Source: Methanofollis sp. W23
Lineage (GTDB): Archaea > Halobacteriota > Methanomicrobia > Methanomicrobiales > Methanofollaceae
Direction of reading: 5' to 3'
NCBI RefSeq assembly: GCF_017875325.1
Contig: NZ_JAGGMN010000001.1
Coordinates: 1,116,001 to 1,180,000 of the forward strand
DNA length: 64,000 bases
Shown here piece after piece: positions 32,757 to 40,120 of this stretch (positions are counted from its first letter, which is position 1; every line of letters starts with the position of its first letter). A program made the position numbers and the translations under genes. The notes under the pieces were generated by a model. That model saw nothing but the letters and a program-made list of their open reading frames with translations, was not told the DNA's origin and did not search any database.

Positions 32757-34094
32757 CTATCCTGACTCCTTGCGCACCTCCTCCACAAACCGCCGCATCG
32801 CCCCGACGCCTTCCACCATCAGCGGCGCTACCTCGTGGACGAAGGCTGTCTTCTCAAGACTGGTGGTCGGGCGGTCCTCCCGATACAGGTCGAGGGCCCG
32901 GCGACCGTCATAGTCGACGCAGGCTACCCTGACACCATACTGGTCCTGCGGGAGCATGATCGCGTCTCCGCCGATCGTCGCCACATGGTGCGGGTGGGCC
33001 AGGAGGGCGGTGCTGAGGTCATGGGAACGCGTGACCCCGCACTGCCTGAGGTCGTCGGCAAGGAGGTTGAAATCGGCAAGAAAATAGAACCCGCCTTCAG
33101 GCACCGTCGCCCGCACCCCATCGATGGTCGAGACCGCCTTACTCATATAGTGGGACATGATCCCGTGGACCGCCCTTGCCGTCTGCATGTACTCCTCGAC
33201 TGCCGGGTCCTCGGCGTACGCCGTGATGGCGGCGTACTGGACCGGGGTGGCGACCGAGGTGTACATCGTCGCCGCCACCTTTGTGAAATCAGCGACCAGT
33301 TCTTCGGGACAGTCCTGGGGCAGGATACAGGTACCCAGGCGGTAGCCTGCCGCCGAACGGTCCTTCGAAAGCCCGCCGGTGACAAAAGTCCCTTCGGGGT
33401 ACACTGTCCCCATCGAGGTGAAGCGCTCGAAGTCGTATGTCGTGAGCGCGTAGATCTCGTCGGCGATCACCAGGCAACCGTACTCGCGGCAGACCGATGC
33501 AATCGCCTCCAGTTCCTGCCTGGTGTACACCGCCCCGGTCGGGTTGTTGGGGTTGTTGAAGATCAGAATGTGGCGTTCGGCCGGATGCGCCGCAAGCACC
33601 GCCTCCAGGTCGGCCGGGTCGAGACGATATCCCCGGTCCGGTCTTGAAGGGAGCGTCCTGTACTCCTTGCCAAGCAACGTGATGATCGGAGCATACCCGA
33701 TCCAGGCCGGCGACGGGATCACCCAGGTCGCCTCCATCATCGAGACGATGATATAGATGAGTTCTTTGGATCCGTTGCCTACGACGACCCGTTCTGGTCC
33801 GGCTTCGATACCAAAATGTCGTGCATAAAACCCGGCCACCGCCTCGCGCAATTCCTCGGTCCCGGCGGCATCGGTATAATACCCGAGCGTGGCCTCGCGT
33901 TTCAATGAGGTCACCAGTTCGGGCGGCACCGGAAAGGGCGACTGTCCAAAGGCGAAGTTGAAGAACCTGGCCTGGCACCCCATTGCGCTGCACCGTTTTC
34001 TCTGCTCCGCGACCATCAGTCCGACCCGCAGGTTCTCAGGGACCGCGACCGCATCGATCCGTGGATCTGTCCTGATCGCATACATCTGCTGCAT
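32757..34094 (-). CDS. class I/II aminotransferase
   Basis: This 445-residue PLP enzyme has the fold-type I motifs: NNPNNPTGAVYT, IADEIYALTTYD, the PLP lysine in GGLSKDRSAAGYRLG and a late GVRVACVDYDGRRAL arginine region. It would transfer an amino group between an amino acid and a 2-oxo acid. The substrate is not evident; the long form resembles aspartate- or alanine-type enzymes. A cysteine-containing start (RKRCSAMGCQARFF) is unusual. The ATG at 34094 has GGGGGAGAG directly upstream. Confidence 0.92.
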   Translation of the reverse strand: MQQMYAIRTDPRIDAVAVPENLRVGLMVAEQRKRCSAMGCQARFFNFAFGQSPFPVPPELVTSLKREATLGYYTDAAGTEELREAVAGFYARHFGIEAGPERVVVGNGSKELIYIIVSMMEATWVIPSPAWIGYAPIITLLGKEYRTLPSRPDRGYRLDPADLEAVLAAHPAERHILIFNNPNNPTGAVYTRQELEAIASVCREYGCLVIADEIYALTTYDFERFTSMGTVYPEGTFVTGGLSKDRSAAGYRLGTCILPQDCPEELVADFTKVAATMYTSVATPVQYAAITAYAEDPAVEEYMQTARAVHGIMSHYMSKAVSTIDGVRATVPEGGFYFLADFNLLADDLRQCGVTRSHDLSTALLAHPHHVATIGGDAIMLPQDQYGVRVACVDYDGRRALDLYREDRPTTSLEKTAFVHEVAPLMVEGVGAMRRFVEEVRKESG

Positions 34095-34638: not shown

Positions 34639-36258
34639 TCAGAACCGCTTCGGGTCGGTCTCCACGTCGATGATCGCAGGGACGCCCGCGGCAAGCGCCC
34701 TCGTAACAGCAGGGGCGAGTTCGTCTGGCCGCACCACCCTGAACCCCTCTCCCCCACAGGCCCGTGCATAGTCCACGAAGTCGGGGTTGTGCAGTTCGGT
34801 CCCGAAGCGGGGGAAATGTTCCATCTGCTGCTCCACCAGGATCATCCCGAGTTCATGGTTGTCGAGCACGACGACCACGACCGGGAGGTCGTACTTGACC
34901 GCAGTGAGGAACTCGGCCATCGCCATCGTAAACCCGCCGTCGCCGGTGATGCAGACAGCCGGACGCTCAGGGTAGGCCAGACGTGCAGCAAGCGCCGCCG
35001 GCAGGGCGAATCCCATCGTTGCCAGGTAGCCTGACATCACGAACGTCTGCCCTGGGCGCATCCTGAAGTTCCGGCCAAACCACCACCCATTCTCGCCTAC
35101 ATCGACGGCGATGACGGTGTCGTCAGGGAGGACTTCGGAGAGGACCTGCATGATATAAGGCGGGCGGAGGGGCACAGCGGCGGGGTCGGCCTCGCCCCTG
35201 ATCTGTGCCAGCCATGCCGCCTTCTGACCGGCGATCTCATCTTTTGCCCCTTTCTCCTCTCGCGCTTCGAGATCTTTCAGGAGACGCGGGAGCACGACGG
35301 CGCAGTCCCCCCAGAGAGAGACCGTCTCCTTGTTCTTCCCGAGTTTGACCGGGTCGAGATCGACCTGGACAAGCGGGGTCTCTGCCGGTACTCGCGTCTG
35401 GCTTGAGAACCCGACCCCGCAGGTGAGGAGGAGGTCGGCCTCGTTCGCCCACCGTCGCGCCGCCGGGGTGCCCACGCTCCCGAGCACCCCGAGGTGCCAG
35501 GGATGGTCTTCAGGGACCAGTCCCTTCGCCCGGTAGGTGGTGAGGACCGGGGCCTGGACCTGCTCGGCGATCGCAAGGAGAGTCTCCACCGCCCCGCGGG
35601 CCCCCCACCCGGCGATGATCACCGGGCGCCTTGCGGCATTGACGGCCCGTGCCGCCTCCTTCACCTGCTCGTCGTCTGGTGCGATCCTGACCGAGGGGGG
35701 CGGTCCTTCACGCGGGCAGCAGGCCGGGTCCAGGACCTCCTTCTGGATATTGTTCGGGACCGAGATCTGGGCGACGCCCCGGTCCACGAGAGCGCGGCGC
35801 ACCGCCATGTCGACAAGTTTGAGGGCACGGGTCTTCTCATGGACTGTATTGTTGAAGACCGTGACCGGCCTGAAGAAAGCGTCCTGGTCGATCTCCTGGA
35901 ACCCCCCGGGCCCGAGATACTGGCCTTCCACCTGGCCGTTGATTGCCAGGACTGCGGCGCGGTCCTCTTTTGCGTCATAAAGCCCGGTCGCCAGGTTCGT
36001 CGCCCCGGGCCCCGCGATCGTCACGCAGGCCGCCACCTTCCCGGTCAGTTTATGGTAGGCCGACGCCGCCATCGCTGCATTCTCTTCATGCCGCACCTGG
36101 ATGAACCTGGCCCCAGGGTGTTTCCTGACGGCGTCGATGATCCCGAGCGACGACGTTCCCGGCACCCCAAAATAGAGACCAACCCCCCAGTCTGCCAGTG
36201 CCGCGACCATCGCCTCGGCGACCGTCGGTCCACCGGCGGACGTACTCTTCTTATCCAT
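34639..36258 (-). CDS. thiamine-diphosphate enzyme, pyruvate oxidase / acetolactate synthase-like
   Basis: This 539-residue protein has the three-domain ThDP fold. The N-terminal catalytic Glu is in VRHEENAAMAASAYHK, the central domain runs about 185-320, and the ThDP-Mg motif GDGGFTMAMAEFLTAV ends with NHELGM. Family members decarboxylate 2-oxo acids. The overall pattern GPGATNLATGLYDA, then GGFQEIDQDAFF, is closest to pyruvate oxidase and acetolactate synthase types. No regulatory subunit is adjacent, which argues against biosynthetic acetolactate synthase. The start MDKKSTS has a GGGGGACGG site nearby. Confidence 0.85.
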   Translation of the reverse strand: MDKKSTSAGGPTVAEAMVAALADWGVGLYFGVPGTSSLGIIDAVRKHPGARFIQVRHEENAAMAASAYHKLTGKVAACVTIAGPGATNLATGLYDAKEDRAAVLAINGQVEGQYLGPGGFQEIDQDAFFRPVTVFNNTVHEKTRALKLVDMAVRRALVDRGVAQISVPNNIQKEVLDPACCPREGPPPSVRIAPDDEQVKEAARAVNAARRPVIIAGWGARGAVETLLAIAEQVQAPVLTTYRAKGLVPEDHPWHLGVLGSVGTPAARRWANEADLLLTCGVGFSSQTRVPAETPLVQVDLDPVKLGKNKETVSLWGDCAVVLPRLLKDLEAREEKGAKDEIAGQKAAWLAQIRGEADPAAVPLRPPYIMQVLSEVLPDDTVIAVDVGENGWWFGRNFRMRPGQTFVMSGYLATMGFALPAALAARLAYPERPAVCITGDGGFTMAMAEFLTAVKYDLPVVVVVLDNHELGMILVEQQMEHFPRFGTELHNPDFVDYARACGGEGFRVVRPDELAPAVTRALAAGVPAIIDVETDPKRF

Positions 36259-36299: not shown

Positions 36300-37973
36300 C
36301 TATCCCGGGCCGTCTCCCCCGGGCCCGGGCCACCGGCACCGGGGGGACGGGACGCGGATCTCAAACCTCGCCCCCCTGCCAGGCACTCCGCACTCTCTGA
36401 TGGAGATCCCGGTGGCAGAGAGGATTTCACTGGTCAAAAAGAGCCCAAGGCCGGTGTGTGAACCGTATTTTCTCTCAAAGATCTTCTCTTTTGCCGCCGC
36501 GGCCACCCCCATACCATTGTCCTCAACGACGATCAGGTTCTCTCCCCTGGCCTCTGAAACGCTCACCCTCATTGCCGTGACATCGCCGCCGTGCCTGATG
36601 GCGTTCTCATAGAGGTTGTAGAAGACCTTCCCGAAGAGGGGGTCGGCATAGATCTCAAGCCCTCCTGCCTCGACTTCAAGAGTGACGCCATGATGATCGA
36701 GGATCCTGGCCGTACGCTCTGCCGCCCCCGCCACCGACTGCCACTCAGGCGCCCTGAGCCCGAGATCGCGGTAGTCCCTGGCGGCGCCGAGGTGCTCCCC
36801 GATCATCTCCGAGGCCTCGATGATCCGCCTGACATACGTCTTCTGCTCAGAGCCGTCAGGCGTGAGTTCTTCGAGTAGCCCTCCATAGCCGATGATCACC
36901 TCGAGCTGGTTCTTGATGTCGTGCTGGGAGATCTGGTTGAGGATCGAGGCTTTCTTCTGGGCTCTGCGGAGAGCGTCTTCGGTCTCTTTGAGCCTGCTGA
37001 TATCCCTGACCAGGAGAAAGTGGCCGGTGGTCCTGGAACGCCAGTCGATGATAGGGGAGATCCGGAGTTCATAGTGCTCTCTCTTCCCATCCTTCTTGGT
37101 GAGGCTCTGGACATAGGCGACCTCAGATGTTCCTCTGTATCCTTTCTGGAGTTCAGGAAAATGGTTGATAAATTCTGCGACCGGCAGTCCGATCAGTTCT
37201 TCAGACTGGTGCCGCACTATCTCCTCGCCCTTCCTGTTCATCTCGACGAGCCTGAACTGGGGGTCGAGGACAAAGATCCCGTCGGTGAGACCATTGAAGT
37301 ATCGTTCCTTGGAGAGGGGGACTGTGCCGAAGAGTCCTGCCTGCAACGCACCGGCCGAGGCGGTAAGGGCGGCGGTCATGATACAGAGAATGCAGCACCC
37401 CGCACACGGCGAGGGCGAGGGATTCATGAGCGAAGGGGAGAGGACCGCCGCCCAGGGGATGAGCGCACCCATCAGGACAAACCCGATCTGGCGTCTGTAC
37501 ATCGCAGGTGCGGCGAGGAGCATTGCCACCAGAAATATGATGCAGATGATGACGACGAGATAGACCGCCCCGGCAAGGACAAAGTACGACGTGCCGCTCA
37601 TCAGGTCGGCGACCGGCACCGCCCCGGCGAGGGAGAGCACAGCGGCGGCGGTAGGGACGACCGAGGCAAGGAACGTCGTCGTCAGTGTTACTCGTTGTTC
37701 TTTGCCGGTATATTGCATGACAAAGGCCATCCATGCCGGGGTCATGACGGCGATCCCGATAATTGTCACTTCAGCCCAGAAGCCCTGCCATCCTGGACCG
37801 AGCGGGAGGAGGACCGACCCCTCGCCGAGCAACCAGATGAGGACACCAAGAGCAAAGAGAAAAAAGGTCCGTGCACCGGGTGCTTCACGTCGTTTCCAGG
37901 TTGCGACGGCAAGGACCGAGGCTATGGCAAGAGAGGCGACCATGGCGAAGGTGCCTGAGATGTAGGTGTACAT
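36300..37973 (-). CDS. membrane histidine kinase with 7TM sensor and PAS domain
   Basis: This 557-residue kinase has an N-terminal seven-helix sensor region (1-230, HisKA_7TM type), a PAS domain (about 235-350, GIFVLDPQFRLVEMNRKGEE) and a histidine kinase core. The phospho-accepting His is in SQHDIKNQLEVIIG, and the ATP site includes NLYENAIRHG and DNGMGVAAAAKEKIF plus HTGLGLFLTSEIL. A cysteine cluster (CAGCCILC) in the last sensor helices could bind a metal or sense redox (inference). No response regulator gene is adjacent. The ATG at 37973 fits; earlier start codons are only TTG. Confidence 0.9.
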   Translation of the reverse strand: MYTYISGTFAMVASLAIASVLAVATWKRREAPGARTFFLFALGVLIWLLGEGSVLLPLGPGWQGFWAEVTIIGIAVMTPAWMAFVMQYTGKEQRVTLTTTFLASVVPTAAAVLSLAGAVPVADLMSGTSYFVLAGAVYLVVIICIIFLVAMLLAAPAMYRRQIGFVLMGALIPWAAVLSPSLMNPSPSPCAGCCILCIMTAALTASAGALQAGLFGTVPLSKERYFNGLTDGIFVLDPQFRLVEMNRKGEEIVRHQSEELIGLPVAEFINHFPELQKGYRGTSEVAYVQSLTKKDGKREHYELRISPIIDWRSRTTGHFLLVRDISRLKETEDALRRAQKKASILNQISQHDIKNQLEVIIGYGGLLEELTPDGSEQKTYVRRIIEASEMIGEHLGAARDYRDLGLRAPEWQSVAGAAERTARILDHHGVTLEVEAGGLEIYADPLFGKVFYNLYENAIRHGGDVTAMRVSVSEARGENLIVVEDNGMGVAAAAKEKIFERKYGSHTGLGLFLTSEILSATGISIRECGVPGRGARFEIRVPSPRCRWPGPGGDGPG

Positions 37974-38302
37974 TGCTGATTCTCTGGTATTGGAATTGAT
38001 CTCTGACAGGAACAACCGAATAATGGCACGATATGGCAATCGGGATGGTCCGGAGCTTGATGAGAGGTTTCTCCGGGTATTTGAATTACTTTTGGGAGAT
38101 CGATCTGGTTGCTCCCAGGACCAGGGGCCGCGCCATCAGGGGTGCCGCACCTCGCGCAGTGGCCCCATGATCACTCCTGAATCCTGGGCTCTCATGGCCC
38201 GCCCCTGGACCCTGGTGCGAGGGGGGAGAAATACGTCCAATATGGCGGGGAAAATCTCTCAATTGCGAGGAGATCGGGAAACTCAAGGGGGGCCAGGCAC
38301 AA
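37974..38302. other. gap without a recognised gene or repeat
   Basis: The stretch between the divergently placed kinase and the 15-codon gene at 38360 shows no convincing coding sequence. A GC-rich part (38110-38240) has small inverted segments but no end sequences of the repeat family. Confidence 0.4.
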
Positions 38303-38352
38303 ACATTAAACCCTGAAATACGAATCTCTGATCAATGCACTCACAGGAGGTG
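38303..38352 (+). promoter_or_regulatory. promoter and strong ribosome-binding site of tiny gene
   Basis: A TATA-like ACATTAAACC lies at 38303-38312, and a perfect GGAGGTGA ribosome-binding site at 38347-38354, six bases before the ATG at 38360. Transcript start near 38333 would give a short leader. Confidence 0.5.
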
Positions 38353-38359
38353 AGGCGCC

Positions 38360-38407
38360 ATGGCAAAGAAGGGCGGCAAGAAGCAGCCGAAGGAACCGAA
38401 GGAGTGA
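38360..38407 (+). CDS. 15-residue lysine-rich microprotein
   Basis: The frame encodes MAKKGGKKQPKEPKE and a TGA stop. Seven of its 15 residues are lysine, with Gly, Pro and Glu, so it should be highly charged and unfolded alone. The strong GGAGGTGA site at ideal spacing, a TATA-like box upstream, and a T-rich stop signal (ATTATACCTTTTTT) about 30 bases after the stop make a complete tiny transcription unit. No other gene could use this site. The peptide resembles the charged tails of ribosomal proteins. Function unknown; it could bind RNA or membrane lipids (inference). Confidence 0.6.
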   Translation: MAKKGGKKQPKEPKE

Positions 38408-38474
38408 ACTCGTGTTCACTTCATGCGTACAAAACCCCCATTATACCTTTTTTCGGCCAAAAAAATTGTTCATT

Positions 38475-39001: not shown

Positions 39002-39228
39002 GGCTCTGTAGAAACCCTCACAAATTCTTAGTGTGACCGTAACTCACGCCTTCCCATATATATCGCGCCGGGGGCTCCGCCCCCGGACCCCAGGGGCGAA
39101 GATAGGGCGGGGAAGGCATAATAGACAAATATTAGGGGTTTCAGTCCTCGTCCTATCGTATTGCGGGGGGACCTGGGGGCGGCCAACCCCCCGCCAAAGA
39201 TAACTGTCCTGAGGAATTCTACAGAGCC
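39002..39228. mobile_element. MITE-like element, 227 bp, IS6-like ends
   Basis: The ends GGCTCTGTAGAA (39002-39013) and TTCTACAGAGCC (39217-39228) are perfect 12-base inverted repeats. Flanking octamers GGAAATTC (38994-39001) and AGAAATTC (39229-39236) differ at one position, so an 8-base target duplication is very likely. Inside are a CGCCTTCCCATATATATCGCG to GGCGGGGAAGGC arm pair around GCCGGGGGCTCCGCCCCCGG and a second hairpin with GCGGGGGGACCTGGGGGC and CCCCCCGCC. It has no coding capacity. Confidence 0.8.
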
Positions 39229-39232
39229 AGAA

Positions 39233-39715
39233 ATTCAAACCATTATGGAAACCCAAAGAGATAATCTTCGCGATCAATTTCATTGAAACCCTCATAGATC
39301 TGTCAGAGTGGCCTTCTGATCACCTGCCTTCCCTCCTCTTCGCGCCAGGGGCACCCCTGGACTCCCAGGATCAAGATTGTGCTGGAGGGAGAATTGACAA
39401 ACAGGAAGAAGGAGGTGCCGTTCTCGACATTATCGTGTGGCGTCTGGACCGGGGGGTGGCCAAGCCCCCGGTGTGTGGTGAAGACAGCGTTTTGGTTCGA
39501 CGTGCCTTCTCCTCTTTTCTTGATCTTCTCTCTGCCCTTTTTCATGCTCGCACCGGGGGGAGCCAAACCACAAGACGCAGATGAGACCGGGAAGGCACAA
39601 TGGACGACCATAAGATAAGTGCAACCCCCCCCGGGTCACCACAGAGATCATCCCCGCAAAAGAACTCCAGACCAGGGCGCCGGCCAAAAAAATGCAGGGG
39701 CATTCCGCCCCCTCA
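39233..39715. repeat. repeat-family region flanking the 39002 element
   Basis: Segments GATCAATTTCATTGAAACCCTCA and GTCAGAGTGGCCTTCTGATCACC (39275-39325) repeat those at 17783-17830. A GTGCCGTTCTCGACATTATCG module and a GGACCGGGGGGTGGCC hairpin follow near 39415-39465, and TTCGACGTGCCTTC to GGGAAGGCACAATGGACGACC arms to 39610. No end sequence closes it. It continues nearly to the stop of echF. Confidence 0.5.
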
Positions 39716-39718
39716 TAC

Positions 39719-40120
39719 TTACTCTTCGGATTTTTCTTCAGCCGGTTTCTTCACCGGCTTCTTCTTCTCTGGCTTGACATAGGTGATCTTGACCACCTTC
39801 ACGCCGTCATGTTTGGAGAAAGCAGGGCGGTAGTCGGTGTCCATCGTGAGACAGTGCACCGGGCAGACCTCCACGCAGCAGTTGCAGACATGACACTTGA
39901 AGAGATCGATCTCCCAGAGTTTCTCGTCGCGCCTGACACAGATCGCATCTGCCGGACACTTGCGCATGCACATCCCGCATGAGATGCAGCGTGCCGGGTC
40001 GATGGTCACATGCCCGCGCGAGATCGGGTACTCCTTGGCAGGTTCGGCCGGATAGCGGATGGTAGACGGCCCATTGATGAGCGACTTGACCACCGTCTTT
40101 GCCATCTCGAAATATACCAT
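39719..40120 (-). CDS. echF: Ech hydrogenase subunit F, two 4Fe-4S ferredoxin domain
   Basis: This 133-residue polyferredoxin subunit would pass electrons between soluble ferredoxin and the hydrogenase. Two cluster motifs are visible: CISCGMCMRKCP (about 44-55) and CHVCNCCVEVCP (about 79-90). A charged KPEKKKPVKKPAEE tail follows. The ATG at 40120 was chosen because GGAGAGGTGAGAGAG lies before it, overlapping the echE stop. It is the last gene of echABCDEF. Confidence 0.93.
   Translation of the reverse strand: MVYFEMAKTVVKSLINGPSTIRYPAEPAKEYPISRGHVTIDPARCISCGMCMRKCPADAICVRRDEKLWEIDLFKCHVCNCCVEVCPVHCLTMDTDYRPAFSKHDGVKVVKITYVKPEKKKPVKKPAEEKSEE

Follow-up and report, generated by a model that had tools for sequence, protein, structure and literature searches.

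A probable 15-residue, genus-restricted microprotein gene with its own conserved, putative control region in Methanofollis

Comparison across related genomes indicates that the short open reading frame (ORF) at positions 38360-38407 of the window is very probably a translated gene and, in the fullest statement that we put forward, probably a standalone microprotein gene restricted to its genus, the product of which would act in trans. The window denotes the whole stretch of DNA analyzed, 64,000 nucleotides in length; it spans positions 1116001-1180000 of contig C1 in a Methanofollis genome of 2.9 Mb. As judged from the nine loci compared, the ORF and its own control region form one conserved cassette, the elements of which are listed together with the neighboring genes in Table 1. 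The 15-residue gene is probably absent from annotation; genes so short are usually below the size reported by gene finders.

Table 1. Positions in the window of the ORF, its signals and the neighboring genes.
Feature	Position	Strand	Basis and remarks
ORF, 15 codons plus TGA, product MAKKGGKKQPKEPKE	38360..38407	+	Sequence; orthologues; synonymous excess
Shine-Dalgarno (SD) GGAGGTGA	38346..38353	+	Identical in 9/9 orthologues
TATA-like box CATTAAAC	38304..38311	+	Starts 55-57 nt before ATG in 9/9; putative promoter role
Conserved upstream element AAAATCTC-N3-ATTGCG-N2-G-N-GATC	38251..38275	+	Starts 109-111 nt before ATG
Upstream motif GGTGCGAGGGG	38214..38224	+	GGTGCGAGGG in 9/9 at -146 to -149
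Upstream motif GGTGCCGCAC, nearly palindromic	38141..38150	+	GTGCNGCA in 9/9 at about -219
Inverted repeat GTGAAC-TCGT-GTTCAC over the stop codon	38404..38419	+	Arms kept in 4 clade A loci
T-run, probable archaeal-type terminator	38448..38453	+	T-rich tract after stop in 9/9; putative termination
HisKA_7TM-PAS histidine kinase	36303..37973	-	Pfam; synteny; divergent from the ORF here
TPP enzyme, pyruvate-oxidase-like	34642..36258	-	Linked in 9/9 loci; best NCBIfam scores pyruvate oxidase
Class I/II aminotransferase	32760..34094	-	Pfam; synteny
4Fe-4S subunit, membrane-bound hydrogenase-like operon	39722..40117	-	Pfam; convergent here

A search of 61 genomes detected the peptide in nine genomes, all of the same genus, and it is single-copy in each of these 9 out of 12 Methanofollis genomes. 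The same nine were recovered at E<1e-5 by a profile search of 232 genomes of the order Methanomicrobiales, in which none of the 220 other genomes of the order yielded a homologue outside the genus at E<=0.05, and again at E<=0.05 by a class-level search that also spanned 232 genomes. An exact-pattern scan of a named genome collection, which may leave out near relatives of the window, matched two contigs, both of them Methanofollis MAGs. One partial match to residues 6-13 in a genome of another genus (G190; E=0.1 in the profile search) was taken as chance. Moreover, when short Lys/Arg-rich ORFs preceded by an SD were sought near the TPP gene at 17 loci of other genera, chosen from many orthologues, none resembled the peptide.

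The nine peptides, namely MAKKGGKKQPKEPKE, MVKKGGKKQPKEPKE (G001), MAKKGGKKQPKEPKQ, MAKKGSKKQPKEPKQ, MAKKGGKKQPKEPQE (twice), MAKKGSKKQPKEPQE, MAKKGSKKQPKEPQQE and MAKKGSKKQPKEPQPE, share the nearly invariant core MAKKG-[GS]-KKQPKEP. An in-frame stop is found at codon 16 or 17 in 9/9 loci, as TGA in one clade and as TAA elsewhere, and the sole length change among the orthologues amounts to exactly one codon (G002 and G007). Between the window and the distant clades the peptide displays 86-93% identity as compared to 46-50% for the adjoining kinase; the TPP enzyme has about 72-73%, and its fragments in G007 have 65-66%. Conservation of the peptide and of its start region in near relatives, which the preliminary description of this DNA had named as the check on its microprotein, was indeed observed: the peptide is present in 9/12 genus genomes, and SD and ATG are unchanged in 9/9 orthologues, the spacer from GGAGGTGA to ATG being 6 nt in clade A and 5 nt in the other clades.

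Selection on the amino-acid sequence was found in the substitution pattern of codons 2-13. On the tree of the TPP gene 12 changes are needed, of which eight fall in third positions and are all synonymous while four are replacing; as random changes are expected to be synonymous in 20% of cases, P for this 8:4 ratio is about 0.0007 on both topologies used, under the assumption of independent, equal-rate changes and with the 12 changes falling in only five variable columns. The other reading frames were rejected on further grounds. The plus-strand frames carry stops, in G001 when shifted by one and in G004 when shifted by two, and the SD-start pair looked for in the minus-strand frames at the ORF was absent. 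One minus-strand frame (frame 1) equals the true frame in its low number of replacing changes and is thus not excluded by the substitution test taken alone.

The preliminary description had pointed to a 15-residue lysine-rich ORF with an SD at proper spacing, a TATA-like box and a T-run, and all of these are present in the sequence, with the ATG at 38360 following GGAGGTGA after 6 nt and the TGA occupying 38405-38407. The arrangement GGAGGTGA-N3-9-ATG occurs at 40 sites in the own genome as compared to six for a reversed-pattern control, which shows that the genome uses the motif for ribosome binding. Among the 30 of these 40 sites that were read, 13 open ORFs of <50 codons and eight open ORFs of <=15 codons, the one at 38360 included. 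Since short ORFs are thus common behind GGAGGTGA, the anatomy by itself cannot carry the claim of a microprotein. The proposal of a real microprotein is therefore upheld by the comparison, that is by conservation and synonymous excess, which supports the gene strongly, whereas the accompanying reason that so complete an anatomy would be improbable by chance is not borne out.

Two further ORFs came to light in this context. A 42-residue Asn-/Lys-rich ORF lies behind GGAGGTGA elsewhere in the own genome (L123; C1:1415972 onward, plus strand), and a 37-residue ORF in G042 (L054) is somewhat like it. Both may possibly be further small proteins.

Upstream of the ORF, the same order of elements was observed from 5' to 3' in 9/9 loci, namely GTGCNGCA, GGTGCGAGGG, AAAAT, the TATA-like box, the SD (at -14 or -13) and the ATG, and the spacing of the motifs is constant within 1-3 nt although the intervening DNA has diverged. 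The box CATTAAAC, found 55 nt upstream of the ATG, is weak and ranks last among the nine orthologues, the other eight having TTTAAAC or TTTATAC. Of the upstream element, AAAAT is kept in 9/9 and the AAAATCTC core in 7/9 loci, and its copy here is the sole perfect one in the own genome; likewise, GGTGCGAGGGG is present as the sole perfect copy within the window, where GGTGCCGCAC alone has further copies. In the 232 genomes searched, the pair of GTGCNGCA and GGTGCGAGGG occurs once at the locus in exactly the nine peptide-bearing genomes and is absent from the three remaining genomes of the genus. The pair also matches 10 genomes of two other genera, in which the sequences look unrelated and nine share one gene-like sequence. 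Downstream, the T-run begins 40 nt after the stop.

The two distal motifs, both nearly invariant, enclose about 85 nt (38141-38224 and the equivalent in eight relatives). The fold energy of the block around them was no better than that of shuffles (18 folds, z -1.6 to 1.4), and Rfam gave zero matches up to E=1 for the window stretch and only a distant tRNA plus two sub-threshold matches for the loci of five relatives. Given the missing Rfam match and the missing excess of folding, the block is read as control DNA; it could be a regulatory region or, alternatively, an unstructured small RNA.

The ORF is linked to the TPP gene in 9/9 loci and to the kinase gene in 8/9. In G000, G001, G004 and G005 the ORF and the kinase operon are divergent; in G002, G007, G008 and G009 the ORF is codirectional with the kinase gene and about 150-214 nt upstream of it; in G011 the kinase is gone, the peptide is kept and the TPP gene follows. 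The ORF is thus bordered by genes of a 7TM sensor kinase and a pyruvate-oxidase-like TPP enzyme and, on its other side, by those of a hydrogenase-like energy-converting complex. The TPP enzyme stayed below the cut-off of every NCBIfam family among the 25 matches listed. Towards the hydrogenase-like operon, a G+C-rich, repeat-like non-coding stretch separates the peptide from the ferredoxin gene at about 39040-39640, and in G004 and G005 the ferredoxin gene is only about 140 nt from the peptide.

No clearly intact locus was found to lack the peptide, in the small sample of 12 genus genomes. In G003 only the C-terminal part of the kinase is left, next to an ORF for a transposase (DUF772/DDE_Tnp_1); the loss of the peptide is recent here, since G002, the sister of G003 in the TPP tree, has the peptide. 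In G006 the locus is rearranged: a truncated TPP gene is joined in frame with another ORF, and kinase and peptide are absent beside it; in G010 the contig breaks off within the TPP gene. In the fused gene of G006 (L078:5836-7215, minus strand), the TPP enzyme contributes its C-terminal half and the N-terminal part is unrelated to it, with Pfam recognizing only TPP_enzyme_C. The N-terminal part resembles a Mur-ligase-like cofactor enzyme, and the whole represents either a gene fusion or an assembly fault.

The constant linkage to the TPP gene, the nearly constant one to the kinase and the loss of the peptide in G003 and G006, where the module is damaged, would fit a narrower form of the best explanation, in which the peptide would serve the neighboring module specifically, as a small partner or modulator whose target is most likely the TPP enzyme or the 7TM kinase. 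This narrower form is a real possibility, albeit a doubtful one: in G011 the peptide persists in the absence of the kinase, orthologous TPP genes are common in genomes of the order that have no peptide, and in G003 and G006 the peptide could have been lost passively, by deletion of a linked stretch.

Constraint on the ORF may extend to the nucleotide level. Its third positions are conserved at 83-92% as compared to 53-78% in the TPP gene, and so unusual a conservation implies that part of the constraint may act at the level of RNA or DNA. Seven codons (K3, K7, K8, Q9, P10, K11 and E12) are invariant in the eight genomes compared, with a probability of about 10^-3.8 under the rates of the TPP gene, and nucleotides 18-29 of the ORF are identical across all clades. 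When codon counts of MbhL (hydrogenase large subunit) or mcrA were used instead, most of the third-position excess vanished. The gene mcrA prefers AAG, CAG and CCG, and the invariant GAA is not its preferred codon; an mcrA-like codon bias explains the third-position conservation in part only. A role of the ORF mRNA at the RNA level is therefore possible.

The identity of nucleotides 18-29 and the invariant codons, GAA included, are also what speaks for the alternative that what has been conserved is chiefly a regulatory small RNA of about 100-120 nt, of which the ORF would be a secondary (dual-function RNA) or incidental part. We consider this alternative decidedly unlikely, because the substitutions follow the plus-strand reading frame and the stop switches between TGA and TAA, most of the third-position excess disappears under MbhL or mcrA codon counts, Rfam is without a match in the window stretch, and RNAalifold revealed no compensatory pairs in the ORF region (0/16 predicted pairs changed on both sides). 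For the upstream region, RNAalifold likewise gave 0/11 pairs with changes on both sides on the plus strand. On the minus strand six pairs changed on both sides, but many cells were broken and the energy was weak (-3.4 kcal/mol), on account of which a minus-strand structure is not claimed. The inverted repeat over the stop codon has perfect 6-bp arms and a loop that varies among the four clade A loci, and it is absent from the other five.

Leader peptides of attenuated operons are small, have a strong ribosome-binding site, are followed by a T-run soon after the stop and adjoin a metabolic operon. The Methanofollis ORF is like them in all four respects, and it lies upstream of and codirectional with its neighbors in 5/9 loci, at about 150-214 nt from the kinase in four of these. 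Control of the kinase-TPP-aminotransferase operon by translation of such a leader peptide or attenuator is nevertheless very improbable, as the operon lies on the opposite strand in 4/9 loci (G000, G001, G004 and G005), yet the ORF, putative promoter and T-run are retained there; in addition, G011 keeps the ORF after kinase loss, and alternative hairpins are unsupported. The fact that ORF, putative promoter and T-run do not differ between the four divergent and the five codirectional loci points to an independent transcription unit. That the ORF merely arose by chance in a conserved promoter or spacer is scarcely credible: the frequency of short ORFs behind GGAGGTGA and the conservation of the upstream DNA would allow for it, but the invariant SD and start, the in-frame stop, the one-codon indel and the 8:4 synonymous excess stand against it.

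Returning to the preferred reading of a standalone microprotein gene, we propose that a short mRNA would start about 25-30 nt after the TATA box, would end at the T-run and would be translated into a soluble, disordered, basic peptide of 15-16 residues, and that a regulator acting at the upstream motifs would control how much of it is made. The peptide would then act in trans by binding an acidic partner via its MAKKG-[GS]-KKQPKEP core, and this partner may be a protein of the sensor-kinase/TPP-enzyme module, or an RNA or ribosome surface. The binding of RNA or ribosomes, which the preliminary description had suggested, is plausible as judged by charge alone, and the conserved Gln-Pro-Lys-Glu-Pro tail does not point to it specifically. 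In MAKKGGKKQPKEPKE, which contains six Lys and two Glu, a hydrophobic or membrane-spanning segment was sought and none was found, and a hydrophobic type I toxin-like peptide was ruled out on the basis of this composition. In Escherichia coli, the dual-function RNA Spot 42 reportedly encodes a 15-aa protein, SpfP, that regulates the transcription factor CRP, which would mean that a 15-residue peptide is long enough to act on another protein in trans. The two peptides are of equal length, and a relation in sequence is not claimed; in contrast to SpfP, which is embedded in a bacterial regulatory RNA, RNA structure was not found at the Methanofollis ORF. The putative control region of about 200 nt is several times larger than the gene. 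A more far-reaching version, in which a regulated transcription unit with several control sites over about 200 nt makes nothing but the 15-residue protein and this protein serves as a trans-acting peptide modulator of central metabolism, with the mRNA itself constrained as a dual-function RNA, strikes us as unlikely.

Very small archaeal proteins are already known as a kind. According to the account in PMC11456600, Ribo-seq in Methanosarcina mazei found unannotated small proteins, half of them of <=30 aa, and sRNA154 holds a 20-aa ORF that is conserved in Methanosarcina. The Methanofollis gene is similar to those described there in that it belongs to a methanogen, is a very short standalone ORF probably missed by annotation and is conserved at genus level. 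It differs in that it stems from another lineage and that translation, measured for the M. mazei proteins in that account, is deduced here (PMC11456600). A Methanofollis member was not found in open-access print: neither the peptide string nor a paper on Methanofollis small proteins or on Methanomicrobiales sORFs was encountered among open-access papers.

If the preferred reading is true, the gene would be, to our knowledge, among the smallest conserved and independently controlled protein genes in archaea. A 15-residue ORF supported by comparison alone would provide a testable lower bound for independent archaeal protein genes. Moreover, as a single-copy cassette with its own control region, its function would be testable by deletion, given a genetic system for the genus.
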